From contig JAEINP010000029.1 in NCBI GenBank assembly GCA_016342355.1, positions 1 to 63,016 of the forward strand: DNA of 63,016 nt, given 5' to 3'. The position numbers and the translations under genes were made by a program. Source of the DNA: Desulfatibacillum sp. (lineage in GTDB: Bacteria; Desulfobacterota; Desulfobacteria; Desulfobacterales; Desulfatibacillaceae). Shown one piece after another: positions 3,184 to 26,362 of this stretch. Every line of letters starts with the position of its first letter. Position 1 is the first letter of the stretch. Under the pieces are notes generated by a model. That model ran no database searches, was not told the origin of the DNA, and saw only the letters and a list, made by a program, of their open reading frames with translations.

Positions 3184-3764
3184 ACTTTCCCCTAAAATGA
3201 CAAGCAGAGCAAGCCCTTGATGGTAAAAAAGCGAAAAAACGGAACCATGAGAGCGGGAAAGGATGGAAAGCAGAACAGCGAAAAAGCAGGAAGGCCAGCC
3301 TCGGGCATTAGCTGCGGAAAGTCAAAACAACGGAAAAGCGGTACGTCAAAAAAACGGAACAGCCGTACGGCCAGCCTCCGGCGGCCCGCTTTTGTAAAAG
3401 CGGGGCAAAACTTTTAGAATGGAAAAGGATGGAACACGGCGCAATAGGCATCCTCAGCGTGTCCCCGTCTTCAGGCAGGGCAAGCCCTGCGGCTACAAAA
3501 GCAAGGACTGGATTCCCGACAGAAACATTCGGGAATGACAAGACAAAAAACGGGCAGGCACGGGGGCCTGCCCCTACACACACCAGGCAAATGCGGCGCC
3601 CTCGCCCTATCAAACAACAGGCAGGGCAAGCCCTGCGCTGGGCGCAGCAAGCAGCGCCCCTACGCGGCGGATTCAAAAAGGGCGGGGCAAGCCCTGCCCC
3701 TACGCAGCGTCCTTCCCGCCCCACCCGCTATTTTTTGGTCGGAGCGCGGAATCAGGAATTCAAT
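3184..3764. repeat. gene-free stretch with dispersed GC-rich repeats
   Basis: No convincing gene is seen. From about 3470 it holds short palindromic modules that recur near 36 kb. These are GGGCAAGCCC-cored hairpins (around 3477, 3622 and 3686), a GCAGCAAGCAGCGCCCC module (near 3645), and an inverted repeat TTCCCGA...TCGGGAA at 3513-3535 that resembles the widespread ATTCCCG/CGGGAAT intergenic repeat family. Short ORFs crossing these modules are translations of the repeats. The module order (GCGCCCC, CAAGGACTGG, TTCCCGA palindrome) is similar to that in the 35.6-37.0 kb gap, which points to a mosaic intergenic element. Confidence 0.75.
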
Positions 3765-6702: not shown

Positions 6703-7193
6703 TACCGTTGCTCCTTGTATTGTAGGTTTTTTGGGGGAATAGGTTAATGGGCACAAACAATAAAACCAGTGGATTTGAAAATCAATTATAGACGGCCCGG
6801 GTTTGGGAAGTCCACAAAAAACGTTATGGTCAGGGTAAAAAGCAGGCGGGAAAGGTTAATGAATTGTATTGCAAATGATAAAGCAGGGAGGAAGGGTATC
6901 TGTTGTTACAAGAAAATATCACGATCCATGAAAAAATGACCGACCGTGGAAAGATTTTCAAAATCAGAGTGTTGGCCAGAGAGCCGGGCTGGACAGACTG
7001 GCATCCCGGGGAGAGTTCATGTCATAATACCCGGTCGATAGCCTGTGTTTGTCCTGGAAGTGAGGCATGGGGTATGGTGGAAAATCTTTATTGACTCACA
7101 AGCACATGGTTGATATGGGCATATATTAAGATTTTAGGTAGTTATAAAAGAAGCAGGGTCATAATTCCATTCAAGATACTGCCCCAATAGGCA
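6703..7193. other. 490-nt gap between divergent genes
   Basis: It contains the divergent control region of the acyl-CoA ligase (minus) and the UbiA-type gene (plus). A TTG-started 63-codon ORF at 6903-7094 has a GGAGGAAGGG sequence 6 nt upstream, but its product resembles nothing known and has no supporting neighbour, so it is left unannotated. A TTGACT box at 7090-7095 could be a -35 element, but no good -10 follows at 16-18 nt. Nothing else is recognised. Confidence 0.4.
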
Positions 7194-8060
7194 GTGCTGG
7201 ATAGTTTTCTTGGGAATGTCTATCAATTGATTAATCATTATATTAAATTTTTCAGGGTAGGGGGATGGGTCCATTTTTTGGGGCTTTATGTCCTGGGAGC
7301 GGCCTATACCGCAGGAAGACTCCCATTGACCTTTGAATCCGCGTTGGGTCTGCTTAGCTGCGTTTTTTACTTGGCCTTTACCTTTGGCTATAACAATTTT
7401 TATGACCGGCATTTGGATGAGCCGGAGAAAAATCCCTTGACGTCAGGGGATATTTCCCTTAAATCGGCCCACCTCCTGGTGTGGGGCACAGGTTTGTTGG
7501 GGTGGAGTCTTTCCTGGGGCCTTTCCCTGCATATTGGTTTCCTGTGTACCGGAATGTTTTTCTTTTCCTGGTTCTACTCCGGGCCAGTCCAGGGAAAACG
7601 AGTATTTGTCCTGGGAAGCCTGATGAACTGCCTGATTTTTATTCCTATTTTTTATGCAGGCATTTTAGTCTTTGGAAAGCCTGTCCCGGGGGGGACATTA
7701 TTATGCCTGGTCCTGGCGCCCAGTGTCCTGATTCCCCAGCTTGCCCATGAGATTCAGGATAGAGACAGTGATTTGGCTGCAGGAATCAACACGGTCGCTG
7801 TTCGCCTGGGGAAAGAAAAAACCATTGGATGCATATGGTTTCTGGCGGGCCTTCGGGCGGCCCTGGCCTGGGCCTGCATTCTACCAGGCTATTTGGCTAT
7901 GCAAGACGCTGTTTTGCTGAGCCTGATTTCCTGCAGCGAAATTGGACTGACCCATCTGTACAAAGGCAAGCCCAGCCTTGCGACTATGCGTTTGGGCTTT
8001 CGTTTTACTAATATTGCCCTGGGCGCAGGACTCCTTATTTCATGGATATTCATTAACTGA
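7194..8060 (+). CDS. UbiA-superfamily prenyltransferase
   Basis: A 288-residue integral membrane protein with about eight hydrophobic segments and both aspartate-rich motifs of the UbiA family: NNFYDRHLD (Asn67, Asn68, Asp71, Asp75) and HEIQDRDSD (Asp189, Asp191 and Asp193). These bind Mg2+ and a prenyl diphosphate, which is transferred to an aromatic or polar lipid acceptor. The start is a GTG with only a weak ribosome-binding site, so the N-terminus is uncertain. It is 15 nt upstream of a radical SAM gene and leads a short run with the two propeller proteins. The acceptor is unknown; quinone, chlorophyll-like and ether-lipid substrates all occur in the family. Confidence 0.85.
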   Translation: MLDSFLGNVYQLINHYIKFFRVGGWVHFLGLYVLGAAYTAGRLPLTFESALGLLSCVFYLAFTFGYNNFYDRHLDEPEKNPLTSGDISLKSAHLLVWGTGLLGWSLSWGLSLHIGFLCTGMFFFSWFYSGPVQGKRVFVLGSLMNCLIFIPIFYAGILVFGKPVPGGTLLCLVLAPSVLIPQLAHEIQDRDSDLAAGINTVAVRLGKEKTIGCIWFLAGLRAALAWACILPGYLAMQDAVLLSLISCSEIGLTHLYKGKPSLATMRLGFRFTNIALGAGLLISWIFIN

Positions 8061-8075
8061 ACTGGGTGAGGCATT

Positions 8076-9080
8076 TTGAAGAAGCAAACGATCATTTCCA
8101 TGGTTGGGCTCCTTTCCGCCATGCTTCAAAAAAGGCGTTTTCCAGCCTCCATGGGAATGATTGTCACCCATCGCTGCAACCTGCGCTGCACCTATTGCGG
8201 ATTTCCCGGGATCCCCGCCAACGAAATGGATACAAGCGACTGGTTGGATGCCATTGATTCCTTTCTCAACGCCGGAACCCTGCGCATGGGATTCAGCGGA
8301 GGCGAGCCCCTGTTGCGGGAGGACCTGGGTGCGTTGTTGAAATCCGCCCATGGCAGAGCCCTGGTCACCCTGAATACCAATGGATTGCTCCTTCCCCAAA
8401 GAAAGGAAGTCTTAAACCATGTGGACGTGGTGGTGATTAGTCTGGATGGGAACCGGGACATCCATGACAGCCTTCGAGGACATGGGGCTTTTGAGGGAGC
8501 GCTCCGGGGAGGGGAAAGCGCCTTGAGCGCCGGAAAACGGCTTGTTTTTTCAACCGTGCTCACCAGGGAGAATCAGGAGCAAATCCCTTTTATAATCCGG
8601 ACGGCCAAGGAGATGGGCGCGCAATGCACCTTTCAACCAGTGACTCCCTGCGATGTCAGCTCCATGGAGGCATCCAAATTTCTCCCTGAAAAAAAGGCTT
8701 TGCTGCATAATGTCAAACAGTTGGCTGCGGCTAAAAGGCGGGGCCTGCCGGTGTGTTGTTCACGCGCCTATCTGGATCTGTTATCGCGGTATCCCGATGT
8801 CTCCGCCATGGGTAAACATTGTCTGCTTGGCAGGTATGGGGCTTTTGTCACTCCATCCGGAAATGTCTGCCGGTGCCATGTGCACATGGATATAACGCCC
8901 ATGCCCCCGGGCAATCCCCCTGGATACCTTGAATCATTTCATGGGATACCCTTGAGGGTTTGCAAGGGCTGTCTGATATACCCATATGTGGAATTTACTC
9001 AAATTTTTAATGGAAATCCCCATGCTCTTTTGAATGTATTGGGGCAAGCCTTTAAGGGGATGGGACACATCGCTAAATGA
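8076..9080 (+). CDS. radical SAM protein (MoaA/PqqE-like core)
   Basis: A 334-residue radical SAM enzyme. The cluster motif THRCNLRCTYC supplies Cys34, Cys38 and Cys41, followed by FSGGEPLLREDLG (SAM-binding GGE) and LNTNGLLL. The C-terminal region has additional cysteines (VCRCHVH and VCKGCLIYP), which may hold an auxiliary cluster, though not in a canonical SPASM spacing. The TTG start at 8076 is chosen because GGGTGAGG ends 4 nt upstream. The stop overlaps the next ATG (ATGA), so it is probably translationally coupled to the first propeller protein. Substrate is unknown; the pairing with a prenyltransferase suggests lipid chemistry, which is inference. Confidence 0.88.
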   Translation: MKKQTIISMVGLLSAMLQKRRFPASMGMIVTHRCNLRCTYCGFPGIPANEMDTSDWLDAIDSFLNAGTLRMGFSGGEPLLREDLGALLKSAHGRALVTLNTNGLLLPQRKEVLNHVDVVVISLDGNRDIHDSLRGHGAFEGALRGGESALSAGKRLVFSTVLTRENQEQIPFIIRTAKEMGAQCTFQPVTPCDVSSMEASKFLPEKKALLHNVKQLAAAKRRGLPVCCSRAYLDLLSRYPDVSAMGKHCLLGRYGAFVTPSGNVCRCHVHMDITPMPPGNPPGYLESFHGIPLRVCKGCLIYPYVEFTQIFNGNPHALLNVLGQAFKGMGHIAK

Positions 9081-10519
9081 GATTTGTAAAAAATCTGGGT
9101 TATTGTTTTTTTGTGCTTTCCGCAACGCTCATTTTTTGTCTTTTTATTGGATACTGCGGCCTGAAAGATGGGTTGGAAAGCACCCGGTTATTGATTATAT
9201 TTTTATCGGGCTCGACCCTGGCTTTTCAGTACTCTTCCTTGCGTGAAAAATCCCTTTTTAAAGGGGCTTCTTTGGCTGTTTTTTTTTCCTGCAACATCGT
9301 GATTCTTTCGTTCCTCGGGATTTTAGCTGTCAACTCACCCGCATGGGGAGTATTTTTTTTTATTGCTCCTGTGTTGATATATGCATTGCTAAAAAATATT
9401 GCCGGCCAATGGCAAATCCAAGTGACGCTCTCTGCCTTAACGGTTATTAATTACGTCTTTTTTGTTATAGCCTTTTCATCTTTTCCATTTCTCAAAAACT
9501 TTGCCTTTGATGGCATGGCCCAGCATGAATGGGACAATAAAGGACTTAACCGCCCTGGCGTGAATTGGGTGGTGAAAGTGGAGCAACAAGAAGGCGGCTT
9601 ACAGCTCATTTATCCCGATGGCGCAAAATACTCTGCAAAGGCCTTTGATCCGTTCATGATTCATTGCCTGGGGCCTGAAACAATCCTTGTCTCCTATGAA
9701 AGGCGGCGGTGCATTGAAAAAATCAACCTGAAAACCCAAACGCTCCAAACGTGGGCTTACAGAAGAGGCCCATGTACGTATTTTTTTCTTTCACCTGATG
9801 AAAAGGTACTTTACACGGGGAGTCTTTATGTACCTTCAGATAGTTCGGATACTTTTGAAATCAAGGTAAGTGACATGACCCTGATTAGGAGCATGCCCTT
9901 AAATGACACTCCATGGGAGAAGAAAAAACAAAACAATGACGGATTTCGAAATGGTAAGATTATTGGGGAAACCAAATACATTTGCACCTTCCGCGGCCGG
10001 GTTTTTGCCTATGGTTTGGATCACACCTCCAAGGCGCAATTGCGCCTTTCAAATTTGTTAGCTTATAATATGGTATCCTTTTCCGATCAAGAAGGCCTGA
10101 TGTATGTCCCCAGCTTTCCCGTGGGCTTTTATGGCATAAGTCTGCCTGAATTGAAGGTGACAGCATGGAAAAACCTTTTTTTGAGCATGTGGGTAGTGCC
10201 TTTGCCGGAGCGAAAGGAAATCCTGGCGAACGGAGCGGCGAGCGTTTATGTGTTGGACTCCCAAACACTGGCAACCAAATGGAAAATTCCCACCGGCTTT
10301 GGAATCCGCTGCCTGGACTTTGACACTAAGCGTAATTGGATCTATGTGGCCAAATATTTTACTGGGGAATTAGAGGTTTATGACTACCACACAGGGGCGT
10401 TGATAGGCGCAATAGAGGTTGGCCCGTTGTTGCGTTTTGTGGGCTATTCTCAGGAAAGGGATTCCATATTTACCGGAAGTTCAGCCGGCATTTTGGAAAT
10501 ATCACCGAAAATATTTTAG
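9077..10519 (+). CDS. membrane-anchored beta-propeller protein, copy 1
   Basis: A 480-residue protein. Residues 1-165 hold about four to five hydrophobic segments. The remainder reads as repeated beta-blades of the YVTN/WD40-like kind, for example NWIYVAKYFTGELEVYDYHTG. It is presumably anchored in the inner membrane with the propeller in the periplasm or cytoplasm, as a scaffold or sensor; no catalytic residues are recognised. Its ATG overlaps the preceding radical SAM stop. The next gene is a paralogue: the last 105 residues differ at only nine positions, whereas the membrane part is more diverged. That pattern indicates tandem duplication with conservation or gene conversion at the 3' end. 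No named family. Confidence 0.75.
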   Translation: MRFVKNLGYCFFVLSATLIFCLFIGYCGLKDGLESTRLLIIFLSGSTLAFQYSSLREKSLFKGASLAVFFSCNIVILSFLGILAVNSPAWGVFFFIAPVLIYALLKNIAGQWQIQVTLSALTVINYVFFVIAFSSFPFLKNFAFDGMAQHEWDNKGLNRPGVNWVVKVEQQEGGLQLIYPDGAKYSAKAFDPFMIHCLGPETILVSYERRRCIEKINLKTQTLQTWAYRRGPCTYFFLSPDEKVLYTGSLYVPSDSSDTFEIKVSDMTLIRSMPLNDTPWEKKKQNNDGFRNGKIIGETKYICTFRGRVFAYGLDHTSKAQLRLSNLLAYNMVSFSDQEGLMYVPSFPVGFYGISLPELKVTAWKNLFLSMWVVPLPERKEILANGAASVYVLDSQTLATKWKIPTGFGIRCLDFDTKRNWIYVAKYFTGELEVYDYHTGALIGAIEVGPLLRFVGYSQERDSIFTGSSAGILEISPKIF

Positions 10520-10530
10520 CAATGAAACAC

Positions 10531-10558
10531 TTGGAATAGCTGGTCACTTCTATTCCAA
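10531..10558 (+). terminator. stem-loop between the two propeller genes
   Basis: TTGGAATAG (10531-10539) and CTATTCCAA (10550-10558) form a perfect 9-bp stem with a 10-nt loop, 12 nt after the stop of copy 1. The following sequence (TACCCTTTTCAGTTTTC) is T-rich but not a clean T-run. It could be a weak terminator or an RNA-processing hairpin that sets the ratio of the two copies. Confidence 0.4.
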
Positions 10559-10668
10559 TACCCTTTTCAGTTTTCTGTCCAGGGTGGGATTGCTCTGCAT
10601 AAGAAAACCACGTCTTATGCGCCTGATTAAATGCCCCCATTAAGAAGAAGAACGGGACTCGTTGCAAA

Positions 10669-12123
10669 ATGAAATTTATCAAATTTTTGACTTACTATAT
10701 TCTTGTGCCTTCTGCCTCCCTCTTCTTCTATGCGTACTTAGGATTTTCCATGTTGGATGGGGACTTGGACAAAACCCGGCTTTTGCTTTTTACTGTGTCT
10801 CTTGGGGTTTTCACTATCCAACAATCGCCATTGAGGAGTAAGATTCTTTTCAAAGGAATGTCCCTGGCTGTATTTTTTTCCTGTAACGGATTAGCTTTTT
10901 CGCTCTTTGGTTTTTTAACTGTCAGTTCTTTCACCTGGGGGGTAATTTTTTTTTCTGCTCCAATTTTAACCTATACTTTGCTAAAAATAGTGGCCACTCG
11001 ATGCAAAATCAAATTGACAGTTCACGCCTTAACTGTAATCAATTGCGTCTTTTTTGTAATTGCTATTCTTCTTTTTCCATTTCTAAAATACTTTCATTTT
11101 GATGGCATGGCGCATCATGAATGGGACCGGAAGAGCCTGGATGTTCCAGGTGTGAATTGGGTGGTAGAAGCCAAACAAGAAGATGGAGGTCTACAACTCC
11201 TTTATCCCGGTGGTGAGAAGTTATCCGCAACCCATTTTGATCCTTACATGATTCATTGCATAGGACCTGACACAATCATAGTGTCCTATGAAAGACGACG
11301 ATGCATCGAGAAAATCAATCTAAAAACTGGGAAAATATATAGATACGATTATAAGGGCGGTACATGTACCTACTTTTTTCCTTCCCTCGACAAAAAGACT
11401 ATCTACACAGGGAGCCATTCAGCCAGCCTTGAAAATAGGATTATTTATGAAATTGATGTAAGTGACATGACCCTGATTAGGGGGTGGCCCCTTTCCGGCA
11501 CAGAACAGGAAGAAACCGCACAAAGCGCGGATGGATTCCGAAGCGGACAGGTTATAGGGAATACCAAATACGTCTGTACTTTCCGAGGAAGGGTGTTTGC
11601 TTATGATTTGGATTACACCCCCAAGGCGCAATTGCGTCTTCCTAATTTGCCAGCCTACAATATTGCATCATTTTCTGAGCAAGAAAGCCTGATGTATACC
11701 CCCAGTTTTCCGTTGGGCTTTTATTGCATAAGCCTGCCTGCACTGCAGGTGACGGCATGGAAAAGTTTATTTTTAAGCATGTGGTCAGTGCCTTTGCCGG
11801 AACGAAAGGAAATCCTGGCAAACGGAGCGGCTATCGTTTATGTGTTGGACTCCCAAACCCTTGCTACCAAACGAAAAATTCCCACCGGTTTTGGAATCCG
11901 CTGTCTGGACTTTGACAGTAAGCGCAACTGGATATATGTGGCCAAATATTTCACTGGTGACTTGGAGGTTTATGACTACCATACCGGGGAGTTAATTGGC
12001 TCCATAGAAGTGGGGCCTTTGCCGCGTTTTGTGGGTTATTCCCCGGAAAGGGATTCCATATTTATCGGGAGTTCAGCGGGCATATTGGAAATTTCGCCCA
12101 AGATTTTTGAATCAAGCCAGTGA
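10669..12123 (+). CDS. membrane-anchored beta-propeller protein, copy 2
   Basis: A 484-residue paralogue of the preceding gene with the same architecture: N-terminal membrane segments to about residue 165, then propeller blades. Conserved landmarks shared with copy 1 include MAHHEWD/MAQHEWD, GVNWVV, SYERRRCIEKINLKT, and the C-terminal GSSAGILEISPKIF. It has a four-residue C-terminal extension (ESSQ). The intergenic gap of 149 nt carries a hairpin. It ends about 80 nt before the convergent stop of a B12-type radical SAM gene. The conserved ERRRC motif and Cys-containing blades may be functional, but no activity can be assigned. Two retained copies suggest a hetero-oligomer or two states of one partner. 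Confidence 0.75.
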   Translation: MKFIKFLTYYILVPSASLFFYAYLGFSMLDGDLDKTRLLLFTVSLGVFTIQQSPLRSKILFKGMSLAVFFSCNGLAFSLFGFLTVSSFTWGVIFFSAPILTYTLLKIVATRCKIKLTVHALTVINCVFFVIAILLFPFLKYFHFDGMAHHEWDRKSLDVPGVNWVVEAKQEDGGLQLLYPGGEKLSATHFDPYMIHCIGPDTIIVSYERRRCIEKINLKTGKIYRYDYKGGTCTYFFPSLDKKTIYTGSHSASLENRIIYEIDVSDMTLIRGWPLSGTEQEETAQSADGFRSGQVIGNTKYVCTFRGRVFAYDLDYTPKAQLRLPNLPAYNIASFSEQESLMYTPSFPLGFYCISLPALQVTAWKSLFLSMWSVPLPERKEILANGAAIVYVLDSQTLATKRKIPTGFGIRCLDFDSKRNWIYVAKYFTGDLEVYDYHTGELIGSIEVGPLPRFVGYSPERDSIFIGSSAGILEISPKIFESSQ

Positions 12124-12205
12124 AAAGAGCGAGGTGTGGCATGTTTTTCAATAAAATTCAAATAGTTGTTGAGACAAGCCACCTCGTCAGGCTGCAGGCA
12201 ATACA

Positions 12206-13486
12206 CTATGCAGCAAAGGAATCGCCCACATTACTGATGACCATATTGGCGCACCGTTCCGCGAGCTTAGGGAACCAGCCATGGAGAGAGATGCCTATCC
12301 TGTAAGCTGCGTTCCACAGGGTGTGTCTATTGGTATCCCTGAGAGATTGTTGGTATTGAGCCTCGGTGCAGGCCCCGTCGGGACCAGGATCCAGATCAGT
12401 ATACCACCAGGTATCCGCACGGCTTAAGGTGCAGCCCGTTGCTTTTTGAACAGACTGAAGAGCCTCTCCATATTGAGGAGAGGAAGAGATAAGTCTTTGA
12501 GCGTAACATACGCGCACGTCATATTTTGTTGTGGCCTGGACCTGTTTAATACAACTGATTAATCTATCCTGGATTTGCAATTCCGTGGAGGAAGCATGCT
12601 TTTGGTCAATGGAGAACTGGACAAGGCCGCCTGAAAATGATTGCATAAGAAGTGATAGAGCTTCTTCAGACGGGAGAGTTACAATATCCCATGCAACAAA
12701 CAAGTTATATTTTCGATCCAGCACGGCTTTGGAATAGTCCAACGGCATGGGACCCACAAAGTCAATAAATGTGGACATGTAGGCGATTTCGGGGTTTTCA
12801 CTCCATGCGGAAATGTCCGCTTTTACCTTTTCAGGAGAACGCATCACCAGATTGCGATTGAATATCCTTTTTTGATTTTTGGGAGCCCCATAGCAATGCT
12901 CACAGTGGAGTGAACAACCTCTTGCAGCCATCAAGTACGGGTATGTAGGGTAGGCGCGGTGGTGGCTTTGCTTGTGTAACCTATCCAAATCCCTTTTCAA
13001 TGAAGGAAAAAACGAAATGTCTTGATAATTGTTTTGGTCGAAATCTTCCCTCGTCAACACATAGGTTTTTTCAGACTCCCACTCCCTGGCCACCAGGTTG
13101 GGCGCCTGTCTCAAATCCGATCCATCCCTCAAGGCTTTGATTAACGCCGCCAGTGGTATATCCCCGTCCCCCCGGATGATGTAATCAATTTTCGAGTCCC
13201 TGAGTATTTGGTGGCGGAACACGCTGGCGGAAACCCCTCCTGCAATCACCTTGGCTTCGGGGTTGATCGCCTTGAACCGGTGCGACAGTTTGATGGCGGA
13301 TTTTATGGCGCTAAACCAATGGATATCCATGACAATAATGTCTACCCCGGCCACTTCCTTTTTGGTCCATTCATCATGGTACCGACCCGAAACTGGTTCT
13401 TCAATCCGGTTGATTACCGCAGGAAGGGACATGGGCAAAATAGGCCGAAGCATCATTTTGGAATCCGGGTGGACAAACAGTATCAC
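12206..13486 (-). CDS. B12-binding-type radical SAM protein
   Basis: A 426-residue protein with an N-terminal Rossmann-like cobalamin-binding-type domain (DIIVMDIHWFSAIKSAIKL, VIAGGVSASVFRH, IDYIIRGDGDIPLAALI) and a radical SAM core. The cluster motif ARGCSLHCEHCYGAP gives Cys191, Cys195 and Cys198. It is shorter than the usual 470-550 residues, and the C-terminal part is compact. Family members methylate unactivated carbons or rearrange carbon skeletons using cobalamin and SAM; the substrate here is unknown. It is transcribed divergently from the next radical SAM gene across a 167-nt region that holds a perfect 17-bp palindrome, a possible shared operator. Confidence 0.85.
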   Translation of the reverse strand: MILFVHPDSKMMLRPILPMSLPAVINRIEEPVSGRYHDEWTKKEVAGVDIIVMDIHWFSAIKSAIKLSHRFKAINPEAKVIAGGVSASVFRHQILRDSKIDYIIRGDGDIPLAALIKALRDGSDLRQAPNLVAREWESEKTYVLTREDFDQNNYQDISFFPSLKRDLDRLHKQSHHRAYPTYPYLMAARGCSLHCEHCYGAPKNQKRIFNRNLVMRSPEKVKADISAWSENPEIAYMSTFIDFVGPMPLDYSKAVLDRKYNLFVAWDIVTLPSEEALSLLMQSFSGGLVQFSIDQKHASSTELQIQDRLISCIKQVQATTKYDVRVCYAQRLISSSPQYGEALQSVQKATGCTLSRADTWWYTDLDPGPDGACTEAQYQQSLRDTNRHTLWNAAYRIGISLHGWFPKLAERCANMVISNVGDSFAA

Positions 13487-13581
13487 AGGCGTTCCTTATT
13501 CAATAGATAGGGTGTATCAGGCAGGAAAATTCCAACAATGACTAAATATAGCAATATGGAGTTTCAATCAAGGGGAGTTTG

Positions 13582-13598
13582 TACTATAAGTTATAGTA
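13582..13598. promoter_or_regulatory. 17-bp perfect palindrome, candidate operator
   Basis: TACTATAAGTTATAGTA is an exact inverted repeat (8-bp arms, 1-nt centre). It lies in the divergent region between the radical SAM genes starting at 13486 (minus) and 13654 (plus). The size and position fit a dimeric repressor or activator site that could serve both promoters. No regulator gene is adjacent, and the binding protein is unknown. Confidence 0.45.
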
Positions 13599-13653
13599 GG
13601 GTGGTAAAAATCTTGCTTGGTCTGATATCTAAAAATTCGATGGGAATATTTTT

Positions 13654-15093
13654 GTGAAAATCGTCTTGATTATTCCGGAAAGCGGACGAAAAGACCTTTT
13701 GGGCCGGTACTCCAATACCATGACTCCTTTTCCTACCATAGGAGTGGCTTATATCGCAGCGGTTTTGGAAAAGGAAGGGCATGACGTGATGGTTATAGAC
13801 CAGTTTGCGCAGAAGCTGGCTCCCCATCAAACCATGTCCTTGCTTCGGGAATTCCGGCCCGGGATAGTGGGGATATCCTGCCTGACGGCCGCTATGCCTT
13901 CGGTGGAAGCTCTCAGTGCTCTCATTCGAAGAGACCTCCCTAATACTAAAATCGTGCTTGGGAATATTCACGCCTGGGCTTTTCATGAGTATCTGCTTAA
14001 AAAGGATGTGGGTGATTTTATTGTCCATGGAGAGGGTGAAATGACCATGGCCAGCCTTGCCAGTGCTTTGGAATGTGGCGCCTCTCCCGAAACCATATCC
14101 GGGCTCAGTTTTTTGGATCAGGGAAAGTGCGTCCATACAGGGCCTGTGGAGCAAATTATGGATTTGGACACCCTCCCCTATCCTGCATGGCATTTGTTGC
14201 CATACCATCTTTACGAATGACATCCCATTTTTGGGGTATCGGGGATATCCCTTCCAGTCATTGCATCCCGAGGCTGCCCGTACAGTTGCTTTTTTTGCGC
14301 CCAAGCCTCTCCGTTTCAAAATGTGCGGGTCAGGAGTATTGGGAATGTTGTGGATGAAATGGAATATTTGGTCGACCGCTTTGGGGTGACCATGACCGGT
14401 CTTGCGGATTGCATGTTCCCCCTTAATAAAAAAATGGGAATGGATTTCTGCCAAGCTCTCATCGATAGAGGAATCCACAAAAAGGCCTGCTGGATTACGG
14501 AAATGCGCGTGGACATGGCGGAGCCCGAACTCCTGAAAGCCATGAAGGATTCCGGGATAGTGCAGATAGCTTACGGCGTGGAATCGGGAAATGAACAAAC
14601 GCTCAAGCGCATAGGTAAAAAGTTCCAGTTGGAAGACGCCAGGAGAGCTATTCGTCTTACAAAAGAGGCTGGCATCTGCACCTGTGCCTTTTTCATGCTT
14701 GGTTTTCCCGGAGAAACCTCCTCCTCGTGCCGGGATACGATACGGTTTGCCAAGGAATTGGATACGGATTTTGCAAAATTCAATATTGCCGTACCTTATC
14801 CTGGGACCCCCTTCTTTGACACCTGGTGGGACGGCGAGCCGGAAAACCTGGAATACCACAAGTTCAGCGCCTGGTTTTTTCCGAAAAATGGCGACACCCT
14901 GCTCCATGTTCCGGAAGGCATGACCCAAAAGGAGTTGTTAAAGTTTCAACATTTGGCCATGGCTGTTTTCTGGATACGCCCCTCAAAGATTTTTCATCAT
15001 CTGAAAAACAGGTCCTTGTCGTTGGGCGTTATGTGGAAAGGGTTCAAGGCCATGATCCTGAGCATGTATGATTCGTTCCGCCATTCCGGATAA
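13654..15093 (+). CDS. B12-binding-type radical SAM protein with in-frame UGA at codon 189
   Basis: The frame from the GTG at 13654 to the stop at 15093 encodes a full-length (479-residue) B12-type radical SAM protein, interrupted once by TGA at 14218-14220. The N-terminal cobalamin-type domain precedes the UGA. The cluster motif RGCPYSCFFC (Cys208, Cys212, Cys215) follows in the same frame. Alignment to the paralogue at 17595-19040 is gap-free across the stop; the aligned residue there is Thr, and in the 15129 paralogue Met. Twelve nt after the UGA a perfect 8-bp stem (14233-14240 with 14244-14251, one G-U pair) has a GGG loop, which meets published bacterial SECIS geometry. It could be a nonsense mutation, a sequencing error, or a UGA-decoded selenoprotein. 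The non-Cys paralogue residues argue against selenocysteine. Confidence 0.7.
14233..14251 (+). promoter_or_regulatory. SECIS-like hairpin 3' of the in-frame UGA
   Basis: GGGGTATC pairs with GATATCCC around a GGG loop. The apical loop starts 20 nt after the UGA and its first bases are G. The known bacterial SECIS consensus asks for a 3-14 nt loop, a G in the first two loop positions and 16-37 nt from UGA to loop, all of which are met. Functional status is untested, and a chance hairpin is possible. Confidence 0.3.
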
Positions 15094-15128
15094 GCACCCC
15101 TTCTATATTGGCAACAAGGGATATTGGT

Positions 15129-16568
15129 ATGCAAGGCTTTTCAAAAGAGTATAAAGTTCTCCTCATTTCTCCCCCCTTATCCAGAATCCGTTTTAACCTG
15201 AGCGGCATCATGCCCATGCAGCCCTTGGGTATGGCTTCCCTGGCGGCCTACCTGCGGGAAAGGAACGTGCAGGTCTCTCTCCTGGACAGCGTGGCCTTGC
15301 GCCATACTGCCGACCAAACCCTTCATGAGATTCTCAGGCGCAATCCGAAGGTGGTCGGCTTTTCCACAACAATTTTTAATATCGCTCACACCCACGCCAT
15401 CATTCGACAGCTTAAAACAATCCGCCCGGAAATTCATACGGTCATAGGGGGCTACGGGGTGGTTTTCCCGCCTGAAATGTTAGGAAACAGACTGGCGGAA
15501 GTGGATTTTTTTATCAAGGGGGAAGGGGAACGGGCGCTTTACGAACTGGTTTGCGCTCTCCAAAGCGGCGGCCCTTTTTCCTCGGTTCCCGGCCTTATAT
15601 GGCGGGAAAACGGGCAAGTGAGGCACAACCCTCCCGGGAAGCCCTTGGACCCTGACAGCCTGCCGCTGCCTGCGCTGGACCTCCTGCCCAAAGCTCCTTA
15701 CGCCATGCACCCTCCTTTCAATGTCAAACCACCTCTTTGCCTGGTGGAGACCGCCAGGGGGTGCGGATGGCATTGCAACTTTTGCAGCCTGTCCCGAGAC
15801 CTTCGTCAAAAAAGTCCCGGAAGAGTGGCGGAGGAAATCGCCTGGGCAAAACGCGTGTTCCAGGCAAGGGAAGTGCACTTTGTGGACCCTACCTTCACTG
15901 CGGGTCGAAAAAGGCTTTACGCGTTGACCGAAATGATTTCCAGGGAATTTCCCGGCCTGGCATGGTCGTGTAAATCCCGGGTGGATCTTATAGACTATGA
16001 AACGGCCCATCAAATGGCAAAGGCAGGGTGTTACATGGTGTCTCTGGGAATTGAATCCGGTTCGCAGAGGATGCTGAACTCCATGAACAAAGCCACCACG
16101 GTGGAGCAATCTGTTAAAGCAGTCCATGCTCTGAAAAAAGCGGGCATCCGTTCCTTGGCGTATATTATGTTTGGAGCTCCGGGAGAGACGGATCAGACAG
16201 TCAGGGAAACCATGGAACTTCTGAAAAGGATCAAGCCGGATTATGCACTATTCGCTGGTCTCATGCCCGATCCACTTTCCGCTTTGCTCAACCAAAAAAA
16301 CAGGGAGGGAGTGGCGAGCCAGGATGACGTTTTCAACCTGTATTATAACAATGACGCCTCTGGCACTCCCTTTGAAAACCAATCTTTTACGGGCATTCCC
16401 ATGGAGGATGTCAACCGTTGGGTCAAGAACGCCTATCTCTCCTTTTATTTGAATCCCCACTATATGGCTGCCAGACTCTTTTCGTCCAAAAGCCTTCGGG
16501 AAATCCGAAACCTTGCTTATGGGGCGGCAATGCTTGCCAAGGACGCTATAATTCCCATGCGGCCATAA
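15129..16568 (+). CDS. B12-binding-type radical SAM protein
   Basis: A 479-residue protein with an N-terminal cobalamin-binding-type fold (KVLLISPPLSRIRF, PMQPLGMASLAAYLRER, HTVIGGYGVVFPPEM) and a radical SAM core whose cluster motif ARGCGWHCNFC gives Cys212, Cys216 and Cys219. The architecture is like BchE, HpnJ and HpnP enzymes that modify tetrapyrroles or hopanoids. The ATG at 15129 is preferred over a TTG 21 nt upstream because AAGGGA precedes it by 7 nt. It follows the UGA-interrupted paralogue by 35 nt and is probably co-transcribed with it. A convergent SGNH-like gene ends 23 nt downstream. Substrate unknown. Confidence 0.88.
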   Translation: MQGFSKEYKVLLISPPLSRIRFNLSGIMPMQPLGMASLAAYLRERNVQVSLLDSVALRHTADQTLHEILRRNPKVVGFSTTIFNIAHTHAIIRQLKTIRPEIHTVIGGYGVVFPPEMLGNRLAEVDFFIKGEGERALYELVCALQSGGPFSSVPGLIWRENGQVRHNPPGKPLDPDSLPLPALDLLPKAPYAMHPPFNVKPPLCLVETARGCGWHCNFCSLSRDLRQKSPGRVAEEIAWAKRVFQAREVHFVDPTFTAGRKRLYALTEMISREFPGLAWSCKSRVDLIDYETAHQMAKAGCYMVSLGIESGSQRMLNSMNKATTVEQSVKAVHALKKAGIRSLAYIMFGAPGETDQTVRETMELLKRIKPDYALFAGLMPDPLSALLNQKNREGVASQDDVFNLYYNNDASGTPFENQSFTGIPMEDVNRWVKNAYLSFYLNPHYMAARLFSSKSLREIRNLAYGAAMLAKDAIIPMRP

Positions 16569-16591
16569 TGAAAAACGGAGACCTGCCCCTT

Positions 16592-17635
16592 TTATTGCAC
16601 TGAGTGGATGGAGCCAGCAGGCTGTGACGCTGTTTTGATGCTTTCCATTTTTGAAAATAGGGGCATGGCCATCTCCCTATACAGAAATGAAGCCAACTCC
16701 CCATGCCCGGCGGCGGAGAGGTGCCCGTCAACCCGAGGGTGCATTTTCATTATGGAATCAATAAACAAGACAGACTCGGGCTTAAAAGCCCGCTTTAGCT
16801 CGGGGATTTTAATCAAAACGTCATAATCCCGGGGCTTTGAAAAGGCCAAAAACAAGGGGATTTTTTTTGAATCGCAAATATTCGATAGTTGGAGGAGTCC
16901 CGTCTTCATCCGCTCAACCTGAACCAGCGAATACCGCGTTCTTTTCTCTCTATTTTCCTTTAACCTTTCGAAAAAGAAATAGCTTTGAAAAACCAGTGCT
17001 GAGCGGAAGCTCTGAAAAACCCTTAAAGACACGAGGCTCTTGGAACGAAAAAAATCATTGGGGTTTACCCAATACAAAACAGCATGGCATGCATATTTTT
17101 CCAGCATTATCTCACCCTGCCAAGCCACATTCTCCGCATTGTAGCCTGGCGCCCCCATGTTTATAACTTCCAACCGATCGTCCATTTTTTCCAAAAGATG
17201 TTGAAAAGTCTGGGTTGAGTTTACAGACCACCCAAATACTTCACTGTCGCCTAACGTAGCGATTCGCAAACGATTTTCAGGAATCTCCGTAAGAACCAAC
17301 CCGTCCTCACGTAAGCCTTGCCCGTTGATTTGGTAATGGACAGGCTCAGGTAAGGTTCCGTGCAATCCCCAAAATAAATAATGCGCGTTGGGCTTAAGGG
17401 CATATCCCCTTTGATCGTTGACTGGCATAATATACTCGCTCATGCGGGGCAAGGGGGGGCAGGTCCACCGCACTATGATCTCCCCCGTGAAAAGCAGGAA
17501 CCCTATCCAAACAATCCATAGTACGGCCTTTTTCCATCTTGAGTTGAACACTGAGTATTCCATACGCATGTTCCCATTTATTTTGCATAGAGAGCTATTT
17601 TGGGGACTTGAAGAGATTTTGAACATTTTCTTCAA
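16592..17635 (-). CDS. membrane-anchored SGNH-hydrolase-like protein
   Basis: About 347 residues if the TTG at 17635 (AAGGAG 5 nt upstream) is the start; ATGs at 17569 and 17563 are alternatives. A single N-terminal anchor (KAVLWIVWIGFLLFTGEIIV) precedes an SGNH-type domain with GDSEVFG (Ser nucleophile block), GAPGYN (Gly/Asn block), VNPND, and a C-terminal DGHLSAAGH supplying the Asp-His pair. Such proteins de-acylate or acetylate cell-surface sugars and lipids (AlgJ/AlgX-like or esterase). The 5' end overlaps the preceding radical SAM gene by about 41 nt, implying coupling. It is likely periplasmic. It could be an acyl-transfer or removal step for the product of the locus, which is inference. 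Confidence 0.75.
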   Translation of the reverse strand: MKKMFKISSSPQNSSLCKINGNMRMEYSVFNSRWKKAVLWIVWIGFLLFTGEIIVRWTCPPLPRMSEYIMPVNDQRGYALKPNAHYLFWGLHGTLPEPVHYQINGQGLREDGLVLTEIPENRLRIATLGDSEVFGWSVNSTQTFQHLLEKMDDRLEVINMGAPGYNAENVAWQGEIMLEKYACHAVLYWVNPNDFFRSKSLVSLRVFQSFRSALVFQSYFFFERLKENREKRTRYSLVQVERMKTGLLQLSNICDSKKIPLFLAFSKPRDYDVLIKIPELKRAFKPESVLFIDSIMKMHPRVDGHLSAAGHGELASFLYREMAMPLFSKMESIKTASQPAGSIHSVQ

Positions 17636-19040
17636 AAAAACTCCTTACAACCACCCCACCGCCCCGCAACATGTTCCAGGGCGAAATTCTTCCCCCGGCA
17701 AGGTGCCTGGCGATCAGTCCCGGACGCACGTAAAACCGAAAAAAAGCCCGCTTGTGAAGCCGGATCAACTCCTGGTCTGTTACGCCCCGGGGCGTGTACA
17801 CAATCCCTTCCCCGTTCCGGGGTTCGTAATTGCTGGAAAACAGTTCCCACGGCGGCATGTCCCGGCCCCTGTATATCTCATCGAAAAACCGGGACCCGGG
17901 GTAAGGAACGGCCCGGTTGAATTTGGCAAAATCCAGGCTGATGCCCCTGGCGAATGCAATGGTTTTTTCCATGGTTTGGCGGGTTTCCCCGGGAAGTCCC
18001 AGCATGAAGAGACCCAGGGTAGTCACCCCCTCGGCCCGGGCTGCAGCCACTGCCTGCTTTCCTGCATCCAGGTCAACCCCGGGTTTGATGCGGGCAAGCA
18101 CCTCCTGGTCCCCGGACTCCAGGCCGAACAATACCATGGAAAGGCCCGCTTGCTTGAGCATCCGCAGCAGGGGACGGTCCACCAGGTCCACCCGGGTTTC
18201 CGTAATCCACTGGATTTTTTTATGAAGGCCCCGTGATGTCATTTCCCGGCAAAAAATCTTGGCGTCCTGCCGGGTCAGGGGAAAAATGGCGTCGCAGAAC
18301 CAGAACAGGTCCACTCCCGTTTTGTTATGAACGGTCTCGATTTCATCCGCCACCTTTACCATGTTCCGTTTACGAAGCGTTGGACTCATGACGTTTTGGG
18401 CGCAAAAATAGCACCGGAACGGGCACCCCCGAGAGGCCAGGATCGGCAGCAAACGTTTTTTAAAGGCAAACAATGGGGGCGTCTGGTAACGATCCAGGTC
18501 AAAAAGATGCCAGGCAGGCAAAGGCAGGGCATCCAGGTCTTGCACAGGCGACCCGGGAGGATTGGTGCAGACTGAGCCGTTATTCAAATAGCTCAATCCC
18601 GGCACGTCCTCCGGGCCTATCCTGCCCTCCAGGCAGTCGTCCAGGGCTTGTATGGCCTTTTCGCCTTCTCCATGAATGACGTAATCGGCAAGATCTTGTT
18701 CCATAAGTTCCCTGGCGAACAGGGTGGCGTGGATGTTGCCTAATACGATCTTTACCCCCGGGACCGCCATTCGAAGGGCAGGCGCCATGGTTTTTAAAGC
18801 GTCGGCGGTAGGCGTAAGGCAGGAGATTCCCACCACCTGGGGCTGGAATAGGGCGGCCTTTTCCACAAGGCTCAGACCGGGGGAGGCAAAACCATCATAA
18901 ATGCCGACCTCAGCGCCCCGTTCCTCAAGGGAGGCTGCCAGGTAGGCCAGACCCATGGGGATGAACGGCACCATCACTTTTTCATACTTTCCCAGGACGG
19001 AGAATTCTTCGGGCCTGGGGTTGACCAGCAGCCATTTCAT
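17595..19040 (-). CDS. B12-binding-type radical SAM protein
   Basis: A 481-residue close paralogue of the UGA-interrupted gene at 13654, alignable without gaps over the central region. The cobalamin-type domain contains VVGISCLTPTADALKTM and VKIVLGNIHATLFA. The cluster motif ASRGCPFRCYFCAQ gives Cys206, Cys210 and Cys213. The C-terminal segment has LFMLGLPGETRQTMEKTI and AVPYPGSRFFDE, typical of the family. Its ATG overlaps the upstream stop (ATGA), and its 3' end overlaps the SGNH gene, so four or five minus-strand genes here form one tightly packed operon. Reaction unknown; probably methylation or ring or chain rearrangement of a lipid-type substrate. Confidence 0.9.
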   Translation of the reverse strand: MKWLLVNPRPEEFSVLGKYEKVMVPFIPMGLAYLAASLEERGAEVGIYDGFASPGLSLVEKAALFQPQVVGISCLTPTADALKTMAPALRMAVPGVKIVLGNIHATLFARELMEQDLADYVIHGEGEKAIQALDDCLEGRIGPEDVPGLSYLNNGSVCTNPPGSPVQDLDALPLPAWHLFDLDRYQTPPLFAFKKRLLPILASRGCPFRCYFCAQNVMSPTLRKRNMVKVADEIETVHNKTGVDLFWFCDAIFPLTRQDAKIFCREMTSRGLHKKIQWITETRVDLVDRPLLRMLKQAGLSMVLFGLESGDQEVLARIKPGVDLDAGKQAVAAARAEGVTTLGLFMLGLPGETRQTMEKTIAFARGISLDFAKFNRAVPYPGSRFFDEIYRGRDMPPWELFSSNYEPRNGEGIVYTPRGVTDQELIRLHKRAFFRFYVRPGLIARHLAGGRISPWNMLRGGGVVVRSFFEENVQNLFKSPK

Positions 19041-20902
19041 GGTTTTTCCTCGGGTTGGGGCGAATCAGAAGTCTGCTCTTTTAGCTCGTTCAAAAGGCAT
19101 TCGCAAGAAATCAGGCTTGCAGTTTCCCCTATTTTTATTTTGCAAGGGCTTTCCAGTTTGTCCAGGTAGTATTTGCTTTGCCTGCGCTGCTCCATGGCCT
19201 GATTATAGGGGTCGAACAGGCGGCCTGTCTCCTCGGGCGTGTACATATCCGGCTCCCCCAGTATATATTTGTTTTTTGGATTTTGCCCGCACCATTGCCG
19301 CAATTTTTCCGGCCCGTTGCTGTATAGAAGATCCACGTCCCTGGCATAGGCCGCAATAATATCCGAGGTATAGGGCTTGGCCCCGATCCGCACCAACTCC
19401 CGGGCTGTAGATGTGCCCTTGCCTGTCATGATCAGCACAAAATCCGCTGTCTGGGGGTGGCATAATACCTCGGCGCCCGGCGGCAGATCCCTTATGGCAC
19501 GCATGACCTTTTCATCGGTATAGGAATGATACCCCAAGTCCAGCGCCCAGCACCCATACAGCACGGCGCAACTCCCCAAAATCGCCCCCAGTTGCCGCCG
19601 GTGCTTGAATTCACCCAGACTAAACAGCCTTGCCACATACAAAACCGTGAGCACCGGGGCCAGAATGGCAAAGGTTTTCTGCAACTGCCTTCCCGGGTCC
19701 AGAACCATGACGAAAATTTTGTAGCTGGCCATATGGACTATGAGAAAGGCGGCCACCGATGAGGGGATTAAAATTTTCAACTCCATGGGAATTGGGGATT
19801 TTCGGGTGTATTTGGGCAAAACCACCCATCCCAGGGAGGCCAGGGCGCAAAACCAGCAGACAGCCAGAAAAAAATACCTCTCTCGGAAAGAAGCGATGCT
19901 TCCGATCGCCAGAAACAAAACCGTTATCCAAAGCATCCATGGCTGTACGGCATGCCTGGGCATCCTGGCGAAAACCAGCCCGGTCGCGCACAGACCCAAA
20001 ATGCAAACTATGATTGTAATCTCAAACTGAAAACCAGTACTGGTCCAGTAATTGAACACATTGAATTGAAACCATTCCACAAGGCTTTGATTACCAAGCC
20101 TGCCAATGAGTTTGGGAATATCCAGGTTGGGGGAAAAGTCACCCCGGACCAGCACAGACAGCATTTCGGAGTAGGACATGGGGTGGAGATTAAAGGCCGC
20201 AAAACTGGTTAAGGATTTTATGACCATATAGGCTGTGGAAGTGACAAACCCCAAAATCAGCACGCCCGCCCGGAACCAGGTTGTTTCCTTGTCCCGCCAA
20301 GCCCAGGCTGTGGCGAAAAACAGGGAAATCCCCAGGACAGGCAGAATCACGGGATACACAATCGAAGTCAGCAACAGAACCCCGGAAATGGCGGCGGGGG
20401 ATCGTTTTCGCAAGGCCATGCACCACAGCCCAAGCAGGAGCACATTACTACTGCGAGCCAGGCCGGAAGGAATGATATGGTTGATGGTGTTGAGCAGGAC
20501 TATGGCCAGGGCGGCCCAAGACCCCAAAACCTGTCCCAGAGGTTTTTTCAGGTACACGGCCCAGACCGCGTAGCTTATGGGCAACATGCAAAACGCCCAA
20601 AATTTGGAAGCTGCAAGAAACGGGTACGCCACCCCCAGGGCTTGAAAAAGCCCGGCCAGGGCTACGAAAATCAGCCGGATTCCCAAAACCACCGCGTGGG
20701 CCGCCTGCAACTCCCCGCCAGGTGTTTTGACAGGAACACCGCCGTTCACATATTGGTGTAGGGAAAAATAATGAGTCAAATCGTCGCAGAAACTGTAGGG
20801 ATGGGCAAGCATGCGGGCCAGGACCGAGGCCATGAGCACAAACAACAGCGCATGGGCAAGGTATTGGGCCGGAAAAGGGCCGCTGCGGGGGTGATTATCC
20901 AT
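19037..20902 (-). CDS. multi-spanning membrane protein, GT-C/GT39-like
   Basis: A 621-residue protein with roughly 10-12 hydrophobic segments. The first loop (PYSFCDDLTHYFSLHQY) carries an Asp-Asp pair near the N-terminus, as expected for the catalytic acid of GT-C glycosyltransferases that use polyprenyl-phosphate sugars. A soluble C-terminal part of about 150 residues follows. The start at 20902 overlaps the GT2 stop by one base (TGATG), with AGGA just upstream; the open frame continues upstream but inside the GT2 gene. The end overlaps the downstream radical SAM start. Assignment to GT-C is by topology and context, not by a family-specific motif. Confidence 0.65.
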   Translation of the reverse strand: MDNHPRSGPFPAQYLAHALLFVLMASVLARMLAHPYSFCDDLTHYFSLHQYVNGGVPVKTPGGELQAAHAVVLGIRLIFVALAGLFQALGVAYPFLAASKFWAFCMLPISYAVWAVYLKKPLGQVLGSWAALAIVLLNTINHIIPSGLARSSNVLLLGLWCMALRKRSPAAISGVLLLTSIVYPVILPVLGISLFFATAWAWRDKETTWFRAGVLILGFVTSTAYMVIKSLTSFAAFNLHPMSYSEMLSVLVRGDFSPNLDIPKLIGRLGNQSLVEWFQFNVFNYWTSTGFQFEITIIVCILGLCATGLVFARMPRHAVQPWMLWITVLFLAIGSIASFRERYFFLAVCWFCALASLGWVVLPKYTRKSPIPMELKILIPSSVAAFLIVHMASYKIFVMVLDPGRQLQKTFAILAPVLTVLYVARLFSLGEFKHRRQLGAILGSCAVLYGCWALDLGYHSYTDEKVMRAIRDLPPGAEVLCHPQTADFVLIMTGKGTSTARELVRIGAKPYTSDIIAAYARDVDLLYSNGPEKLRQWCGQNPKNKYILGEPDMYTPEETGRLFDPYNQAMEQRRQSKYYLDKLESPCKIKIGETASLISCECLLNELKEQTSDSPQPEEKP

Positions 20903-21651
20903 CAATCCTGCTTCCCCCGATCCTGCGCGTTCCCTGCCGTGTCCAGCGGCGCAAAGGTGCGTGACATCAGCCACCGGGCTCCCGCCAGATCCCGGACAAC
21001 CTCGGGCAAGCGATCCCTGACGCCAAAATGGCTGGCGCCCTGCCCTCTTTCCCTATGATTGACACCCATTTGAACCACATGCAACCCTTGCCTCTGGGCG
21101 AAGGGCCCTACAAACCGGTGTCCGCCATGGATGGGCCAGAAGCAACATTCCCTGGCCGTGGTCTTGAAAACCCGCAAGGTGCATCCTGCGTCCTGGATGG
21201 TGTCGGACAACACCTTCCTCCGAACTTTATTGGATATCCTGGATGCCAGGCGTTTTGCCAGGGTGTCTTTCCGATTCCACCGGATGCCGCAGACCATATC
21301 GGCTTTTGAGGACGCCAATACAGCCACCATGCCAGGCAGGTCCGCGGGATCGTTTTGCAAATCTGCGTCCAGGGTGGCGATCACCTCGCCCCGGGCATCC
21401 ATGACCCCCTGGTAAAGGGCCGCGCTCATGCCCCGGTGTTCCAAGACAAGACGGCGCACAAACTCCGGGCCGGAATCAACCACCCGGGCCGTGTTGTCCG
21501 TACTTCCGTCATCCGCGATAACCCATTCCACACTGGCGCACAAGTCTGAGAGCCGGGGAATCTGCCGCGTGATTTCAGGTATAAGGATTCCTAAATTGTC
21601 TCCCTCGTTAAAGGCTGGGGAGACAATGGACAACATTTTGAATTTTTTCAC
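20902..21651 (-). CDS. GT2 glycosyltransferase, polyprenyl-phosphate sugar synthase type
   Basis: A 249-residue GT-A enzyme. The N-terminal nucleotide-binding region (IVSPAFNEGDNLGIL, VEWVIADDGSTDNT) and the metal-binding block DADLQNDPAD match dolichyl/undecaprenyl-phosphate mannose or glucose synthases (ArnC/DPM1-like), without C-terminal membrane helices. The GTG at 21651 is chosen because GGAGGG precedes it by about 6 nt. It begins a minus-strand operon with the GT-C-like protein, a B12 radical SAM enzyme and the SGNH-like protein. It likely transfers a sugar from a nucleotide donor to polyprenyl phosphate on the cytoplasmic face. Sugar identity is unknown. Confidence 0.88.
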   Translation of the reverse strand: MKKFKMLSIVSPAFNEGDNLGILIPEITRQIPRLSDLCASVEWVIADDGSTDNTARVVDSGPEFVRRLVLEHRGMSAALYQGVMDARGEVIATLDADLQNDPADLPGMVAVLASSKADMVCGIRWNRKDTLAKRLASRISNKVRRKVLSDTIQDAGCTLRVFKTTARECCFWPIHGGHRFVGPFAQRQGLHVVQMGVNHRERGQGASHFGVRDRLPEVVRDLAGARWLMSRTFAPLDTAGNAQDRGKQD

Positions 21652-21843
21652 CAAATCCCTCCAAGGGGCGGGAAACACAAGCAACCAAAGGCCTTCCCGC
21701 AGCAGGCTGCACACCCCGCGCGCTTGTTACAGGAATAATCTATTTTCAAACATATATAGTTGTTGTATATAAATCAAGAGGGTTGGGAACAGCTTCAGGC
21801 CAGACAATCCTGGCGTCTTTCCACTACGTGTTGGAGAATCATC

Positions 21844-22173
21844 ATGATAGTAAGTGTGCAGCACTTGTCCGTGCTGGCTGCTCCCTTTTCAGGAAGCGTC
21901 GGCTGGTGGCTGGCTGTGGGATTCCTGGGCCAGGCCCTGTTCGGCAGCCGGTTTTTACTCCAATGGATCGTGAGCGAACTAAAGAAGGAAAGCTCCATTC
22001 CTCTGGCTTTCTGGTATTTGAGCCTGGCTGGCGGCGCCACCCTTTTGGTTTACGCCATTTACAGAAAGGACCCGGTATTCATTGTGGGGCAGGCTGGAGG
22101 CTTGTTTATATATGCCCGGAACCTGGTGCTGATTCACAGAAAACGGGCCGGGCCTGTCAATCAAGGAGGATGA
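21844..22173 (+). CDS. LAB_N (lipid-A-disaccharide synthase N-terminal-like) membrane protein
   Basis: A 109-residue protein with three or four membrane segments, matching the LAB_N family through FLGQALFGSRFLLQWIVSE and AFWYLSLAGGATLLVYAIYR. Stand-alone LAB_N proteins are commonly encoded beside GT2 and GT39 glycosyltransferases and are thought to help move or present polyprenyl-phosphate sugars; the exact role is not settled. The ATG at 21844 has GGAGA about 7 nt upstream. It is divergent from the GT2 operon over a 192-nt AT-rich region and overlaps the next membrane transferase by ATGA. Confidence 0.85.
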   Translation: MIVSVQHLSVLAAPFSGSVGWWLAVGFLGQALFGSRFLLQWIVSELKKESSIPLAFWYLSLAGGATLLVYAIYRKDPVFIVGQAGGLFIYARNLVLIHRKRAGPVNQGG

Positions 22174-23747: not shown

Positions 23748-23820
23748 CCAACGGACTGTTCCCGAGGCTTTCATCACCGGATTTTTGTATTGCGATTTTT
23801 ACACGATTATAAGGGAAAAA

Positions 23821-25410: not shown

Positions 25411-25811
25411 TCCCCAGATCACAAACCGGAATCATAAGACCCTGCCATGACATGATTGGGGCTGAATTTTCTTTGGAAGAGAAGGCGAAGGAGGGCTATT
25501 TGGCCGTACGCCCTGAATTCTGAATATTTTCCATTTCGATTCATACTCATAAGAATATCATTGTTTAAGGTAATCTTCCGAGGATATCTCGTCCTTCAAA
25601 AGCCAATCAATCGCTTTTTTCCGGCATGGCACGGGAATCAACCTATTTTCATTGCCAAGCAGCCCGGGGCTTTGCTACGACATTAGCAAAAGACCGGTGC
25701 ATGCATCCCATCTTAAACCGGCCAGTCAGACAACGGTTTTTCATTTTGTAAAAGCCGCTTTCACTATTCGCCTAATACACGATGGGCTTAGGCCCGCAGC
25801 AGGAGGGTTGG
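25411..25811. other. 400-nt gap, no gene recognised
   Basis: It separates the radical SAM/glycosyltransferase locus from the DUF2889 pair. The DNA is AT-richer than its flanks. No long hairpin, repeat, RNA gene or well-placed promoter was found by eye. A promoter for the DUF2889 genes must lie here if they are not read through from upstream. Confidence 0.4.
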
Positions 25812-26303: not shown

Positions 26304-26362
26304 GCCGAAATTTTGGTTTAGGGCGGCTTTTCTTATTCCAGACAAAACAGGGGGAGGAACCC

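Follow-up and report, generated by a model that had tools for sequence, protein, structure and literature searches.

An in-frame UGA shared by two Desulfatibacillum species in a cobalamin-type radical SAM gene, very probably read as selenocysteine at a site without a cysteine counterpart among the homologues sampled

The window analysed here is the whole stretch of 63,016 nucleotides of Desulfatibacillum sp. contig JAEINP010000029.1, and the gene under study is a single frame at 13654-15093 (+) that starts with GTG at 13654 and has TGA 14218-14220, codon 189, as its sole internal stop. This frame with its lone TGA had been described in the initial annotation and was borne out by translation. 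The alignment to the paralogue at 17595-19040, described there as gapless on both sides, is indeed ungapped around the UGA but contains gaps of one to four residues elsewhere. The features of the locus are the following:

13654-15093, + strand: B12-binding/radical SAM gene, 479 residues and a terminal TAA if UGA 189 is read through
13729-14058, + strand: B12-binding domain, residues 26-135 (Pfam PF02310, E 4.4e-22)
14197-14268, + strand: block of synonymous constraint, codons 182-205, dS 0.11
14217-14261, + strand: possible extended SECIS with a weak lower helix (14217-14221 with 14257-14261), uncertain, a competing fold being predicted as more stable for the naked 48-mer
14218-14220, + strand: in-frame UGA, codon 189, proposed selenocysteine (Sec); the same codon is TGA 3565-3567 in D. 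alkenivorans (locus L050)
14233-14251, + strand: SECIS-like apical hairpin of 8 bp, loop GGG, -8.9 kcal/mol, with identical letters in D. alkenivorans
14260-14751, + strand: radical SAM domain, residues 203-366 (Pfam PF04055, E 5.3e-22)
14275-14298, + strand: CxxxCxxC in the translation, Cys 208, 212 and 215, all three kept in 152 of 152 aligned rows
15108-16568, + strand: neighbouring B12 radical SAM paralogue, Met at the Sec189 position and Cys 11 residues further on
17595-19040, - strand: closest paralogue in the genome (38% identity), Thr at the Sec189 position

Given the extent of the two domains and the CxxxCxxC motif at residues 208-215, UGA 189 falls in the inter-domain linker, between the B12-binding and the radical SAM domain and with the first cluster cysteine 19 residues further on. 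In radical SAM proteins the cysteines of this motif hold the [4Fe-4S] cluster. A cobalamin-dependent radical SAM enzyme is recognised by a B12-binding domain, a radical SAM domain and CxxxCxxC, all of which are present here, and by domains, motif and predicted fold the product is classed as a cobalamin-type radical SAM protein. The AlphaFold2 model, made from an alignment of 13 sequences that omitted the loci from the genome searches as well as the partial L057, has a mean pLDDT of 85.7 and a pTM of 0.87. Its closest solved folds are AprD4 (Z 32.6), MgmA (30.4), CysS (28.9), OxsB (28.6) and TsrM (28.0), which share the fold over nearly the whole model, B12 domain and radical SAM core included, but are just 14-22% identical to the query. 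We know of no Sec in any of these proteins, and in AprD4 a Phe is aligned with Sec189 of the query. None of the best 25 of 34 NCBIfam matches of the query scored above its own cut-off. BchE (TIGR02026), the top NCBIfam match among the matches listed, is alike in architecture and matches residues 25-450 with 244.6 bits, but its cut-off is 481.35 bits and the query is not a member.

The gene was searched for in 59 genomes, comprising the window's own and those of relatives, and one other genome had a TGA inside the gene, which there was of full length and 85% identical. That second genome is D. alkenivorans DSM 16219 and its UGA lies at exactly codon 189. The two sequences are identical in 408 of 478 residues, counting the UGA pair, with zero gaps, and codon 189 is the lone UGA in each; the UGA, the open frame and the hairpin are all three kept in the second species. 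Because it is placed in the same genus, the genome of the window presumably belongs to another, separate Desulfatibacillum species. Nei-Gojobori estimates between the query and D. alkenivorans were dS 1.16 and dN 0.135 for codons 1-181, and dS 1.82 and dN 0.075 for codons 206-478, giving dN/dS of about 0.12 before and about 0.04 after the UGA. Both halves are under strong purifying selection, and the part behind the UGA more so. Since synonymous sites are near saturation while the frame has been kept, the gene is not dead, which agrees with the earlier view that an intact downstream frame speaks for a gene that has not decayed.

Degenerate codons around the UGA are conserved far above the level of the rest of the gene. 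In codons 182-205 they are identical at 21 of 22 positions versus 206 of 383 gene-wide (hypergeometric 1.5e-5; 0.003 after a scan of all positions at the same width), the limits of this block having been chosen after the data were seen. With other widths the scan-corrected p was 0.014 (codons 183-203), 0.15 (190-205, 14/15) and 0.11 (180-206). The block begins seven codons ahead of the UGA, in a part where a SECIS needs no constraint. The control consisted of 13 ORFs compared between both genomes, each of at least 200 codons and at least 65% identity over at least 150 residues, with the rest dropped, and one of these 13 is the downstream half of the query gene itself. Windows of 22 codons with 21 or 22 identical occurred in a single control ORF, from 26090 onwards, where it largely overlaps another frame. 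Two more control ORFs peaked at 20/22, of which one has a better conserved gene opposite it and is possibly spurious. As the UGA, the frame and the flanking nucleotides are all kept in a second species, the occurrence of the hairpin together with the UGA is far beyond chance.

The stem of the hairpin is formed by 14233-14240 and 14244-14251 through seven Watson-Crick pairs and one G-U pair. The initial annotation had reported a perfect 8-bp stem with a GGG loop; hairpin and loop exist, but the G-U pair makes the stem less than perfect. Its spacings, 12 nt from the UGA to the stem and 20 nt from the UGA to the loop, were obtained again when re-measured. The 2026 review PMC13188914 gives as constraints on bacterial SECIS elements a loop of 3-9 nt, a G in the first two loop positions, a stem of 4-16 bp, a distance of 16-37 nt from the UGA and a minimum free energy of at most -7.5, and the hairpin at 14233-14251 agrees with every one of them. 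The two strands of the window contain 1813 TGA triplets; a conforming unbroken stem of at least 8 pairs follows 50 of them and one of at least 6 pairs follows 291, and 35 of these 291 are at least as stable as the hairpin at 14233-14251. Shuffled sequences fold as stably as the 64-nt stretch (z -0.34), and the hairpin by itself is a weak signal, mildly beyond chance. For the naked 48-mer another fold is predicted, with -14.5/-14.9 versus -10.9 kcal/mol for the fold that contains the 8-bp hairpin. For the RNA starting at about +9 nt, the situation of a ribosome sitting on the UGA, the prediction for both species is the hairpin (-10.1). The letters of the hairpin are invariant between the two species and it accordingly displays no covariation. 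An Rfam scan of the window at gathering scores returned one tRNA and nothing else; to our knowledge Rfam holds no general bacterial SECIS model, which makes the scan uninformative on the hairpin.

The presence of selA, selB and selC in the genome had been proposed as a check on the Sec reading, and all three were found above their cut-offs, as was selD. The scores were 614 bits for selA (cut-off 268; passed by 1 of 14 control genomes), 392 for selB (cut-off 242; 2 of 14), 76 for tRNA-Sec, selC (gathering 47; 5 of 14) and 357 for selD (cut-off 125; 2 of 14), so that the tRNA-Sec model, passed by the most controls, is the least specific of the four. A selB is likewise present in D. alkenivorans. 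The selD of the window's own genome (L101, G000:C40:14689-15612) is itself a gene of selenoprotein type, with an in-frame UGA near its start. The hairpin of this selD has 8 pairs, a 3-nt loop GGA closed by C-G and a spacing of 17 nt. The query gene shares this layout: its in-frame UGA, too, precedes a hairpin of 8 pairs whose 3-nt loop fits GGR and is closed by C-G. The two differ in that Sec/Cys pairs are known for SelD, for which Sec-to-Cys cases are given in the accessible text of PMC13188914, while none was found for the query gene.

Very probably UGA 189 is read as Sec by means of SelB, tRNA-Sec and the downstream SECIS hairpin, and the product of the gene is a full-length cobalamin-type radical SAM protein. 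Both the identity of the inserted residue as Sec and the role of the hairpin as the SECIS bound by SelB are inferred from the sequences. Of the two options put forward in the initial annotation, that of a new selenoprotein type is strongly supported by the Sec machinery, the conserved SECIS-like hairpin and the synonymous constraint. In the mechanism proposed, SelB and Sec-tRNA-Sec would bind the hairpin while the ribosome stands at UGA 189, Sec would be inserted, and the full enzyme would then fold with its B12 and [4Fe-4S] domains. Without selenium, translation would end after the B12 domain and leave a free B12-binding domain only. As to the role of Sec189, it may be guessed that a selenolate near the cobalamin/SAM cavity, for example by ligating cobalt, tunes or joins the radical or methyl-transfer chemistry.

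The other option, a fresh nonsense mutation, and with it an early pseudogene or a sequencing error, could appeal to the sense codons that the nearest homologues have at the site. It was rejected because the UGA is common to two assemblies of two species whose synonymous distance is near saturation, and because purifying selection acts before and after it (dN/dS about 0.12 and 0.04), which practically excludes all three. That the UGA is instead a true stop, dividing the gene into a free 188-aa B12-binding protein and a separately started radical SAM protein with the frozen nucleotides as a reinitiation site, would suit its place in the linker between Pfam domains 26-135 and 203-366, the selection on each half and the extension of the frozen block over seven codons upstream of the UGA as well. 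Such a split is nevertheless improbable, as the stretch from the UGA to CxxxCxxC contains no in-frame ATG, GTG or TTG in either species, the only shared codons usable as a start there being the rare ATA 198 and ATT 203. The first in-frame start after the UGA in the window is GTG 14323, past CxxxCxxC, and an ATG that overlaps the UGA is out of frame, its ORF measuring 46 codons in the window and 22 codons in D. alkenivorans. For want of a suitable start, in frame or overlapping, reinitiation was rejected. The other 150 aligned rows, moreover, cross the linker as one frame.

Readthrough by an ordinary near-cognate tRNA (Trp, Cys or Arg), with the hairpin as a stimulator of readthrough and not a SECIS, fits homologous residues that are plain amino acids and not Cys. 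It is considered highly improbable in a genome with the complete Sec machinery and with a hairpin that fits the bacterial SECIS model and resembles that of selD; were an ordinary residue enough, a one-base change to a sense codon would also be expected, at dS above 1, in one or other lineage.

For the residue at position 189 a homologue table of 169 aligned rows was reduced to 152 by removing duplicates and rows not spanning the linker. Its rows are the best matches among the matches listed and 60 further listed matches, so that its counts apply to homologues other than distant ones. The searches at order, class and phylum level drew on 389, 389 and 395 sampled genomes, applied strict E limits and scored few candidates in each genome. 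The linker is variable around the site, and column 189 contained Ala 41 times, a gap 15, Leu 14, Tyr 14, Ser 11, Thr 9, Lys 9, Gly 7, Glu 5, Pro 5, Ile 4, Met 4, Asn 3, Phe 3, U 2 (the query and D. alkenivorans), His 2, and Gln, Arg, Cys and Asp once each. The single Cys among the 150 other rows belongs to a remote match of 78 bits with doubtful alignment, and no close homologue has Cys in this column; Cys homologues at the Sec site, a usual though not defining trait of selenoproteins, were accordingly not seen among the near rows. The Thr and Met reported initially in two paralogues, in place of Cys, were confirmed by the alignment. Orthologues with non-Cys residues only had been named as evidence against Sec, and taken literally this does not apply, the D. 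alkenivorans orthologue carrying UGA. UGA was carried by two species only, and the nearest orthologues without it, in the genomes G117 (49% identity) and G008 (51%), both have Ala. The selB of G117 scores above the cut-off, so its Ala is not explained by missing Sec decoding. Elsewhere in the linker (184-206) Cys was found in 19 of 152 rows, including the neighbouring paralogue at 15108, and in the group L070-L074 (242-262 bits) it lies about 11 residues after the Sec position; a Cys at another place in the linker could play a similar part in those homologues. Apart from the two U rows, the ten top-scoring rows lack Cys throughout the linker.

The simplest history suggested by this distribution, with two species as carriers, would be that Sec was acquired within the genus at a position that was not Cys and is Ala in the nearest orthologues, loss elsewhere being possible. 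The further proposal that Sec189 arose de novo at an Ala-type linker position, with no catalytic Cys as ancestor, and either acts as a selenolate directly on cobalamin/SAM chemistry, with cobalt ligation as one example, or serves as a selenium gate is tentative and rather doubtful. Such a gate would yield a fused B12 radical SAM enzyme with selenium and a free B12-binding domain without it.

Among known selenoproteins, the family of CUAEP/CCAEP-tail radical SAM (seleno)proteins (NF040546) includes a Sec form by its name and weakly matches residues 29-369 of the query, spanning both domains, with 54.8 bits, but its cut-off is 500 bits and the query is not a member. Judged by the name alone, its Sec lies in a tail motif, CUAEP, whose Cys form is CCAEP, whereas the Sec of the query would lie in the inter-domain linker. 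TIGR04167 (GxxU) and TrsS (NF045646) are radical SAM proteins with Sec according to the accessible text of PMC13188914, but both are absent from the best 25 of the 34 NCBIfam matches of the query, and the stated motif of TIGR04167 differs from the query. A parallel that may be suggested for a selenolate beside cobalamin is HgcA, which is not a radical SAM enzyme. Analysis of sequences and codons has led to the suggestion of Sec forms of this corrinoid protein of mercury methylation (Haft and Gwadz 2023, as cited in the accessible part of PMC11588087), and since Cys93 of HgcA is a known key residue (same part of PMC11588087) a Sec/Cys pair is plausible there; for the query there is no such pair.

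No report of the gene, of a Desulfatibacillum selenoprotein or of a linker Sec in a B12 radical SAM protein was found in the literature searched, which consisted mostly of open papers without their supplementary tables, and none in the accessible parts of PMC13188914, PMC8318568, PMC9312934, PMC1794560, PMC12013277, PMC2933860, PMC9723677, PMC5109826 and PMC11588087. The discovery of prokaryotic selenoproteins leans on Sec/Cys pairs. The deep-Sep paper states, in its accessible text, that all known selenoproteins now seem to have Cys homologues (PMC12013277, 2025), and its homology filter may, from the same text, discard selenoproteins without them (PMC12013277). What appears unusual in the present gene is a Sec without a Cys counterpart, as far as sampled, in a predicted cobalamin-type radical SAM protein. 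If true, it would be a counterexample to the Cys-homologue rule, implying that Sec can arise where no Cys stood, and would represent a class of selenoproteins without Cys counterpart that homology-based finders drop by design. It would further suggest that similar genes are overlooked or labelled as pseudogenes. It would also place a selenolate between both cofactor domains of a cobalamin-type radical SAM enzyme, of which no case was seen in the literature searched.

The neighbourhood at 7194-25410 contains B12-binding/radical SAM genes at 12206 (-), 13654 (+), 15108 (+), 17595 (-) and 23716 (+), together with a UbiA prenyltransferase, a radical SAM gene at 8076, a GT2 and a PMT_2 match below cut-off. 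The first of these, 12206-13486, has a B12-binding domain, no Pfam Radical_SAM match at E 0.001 and partial NCBIfam matches to B12 radical SAM families. The surroundings of the G117 orthologue (L093) hold several ORFs of B12 radical SAM type and one glycosyltransferase-like ORF. The neighbourhood hints at a lipid- or glycan-modifying pathway. A PADLOC scan of five ORFs of the window gave nothing.

In G008, the paralogue adjoining the orthologue (L096, C428:330-1685) and a partial selB match (L109, C427:901-2109) each contain one in-frame TAG, which may reflect UAG recoding, decay or assembly error. Pyrrolysine was considered for these and rejected, PylS being above cut-off in none of four genomes, G008 among them at 83% completeness. 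Elsewhere in the window the frames 25782-26303 and 26123-26785 (+) overlap and both match DUF2889, the first below cut-off; they may be tandem copies or the product of a frameshift. From 26090 on the 22-codon windows are fully identical to D. alkenivorans, as expected from overlapping coding. Two long open frames, 5035-6756 (-) with 573 aa and 5053-6747 (+) with 564 aa, cover almost the same stretch on opposite strands, and the frame at 5035-6756 (-) has 87% identity in D. alkenivorans.
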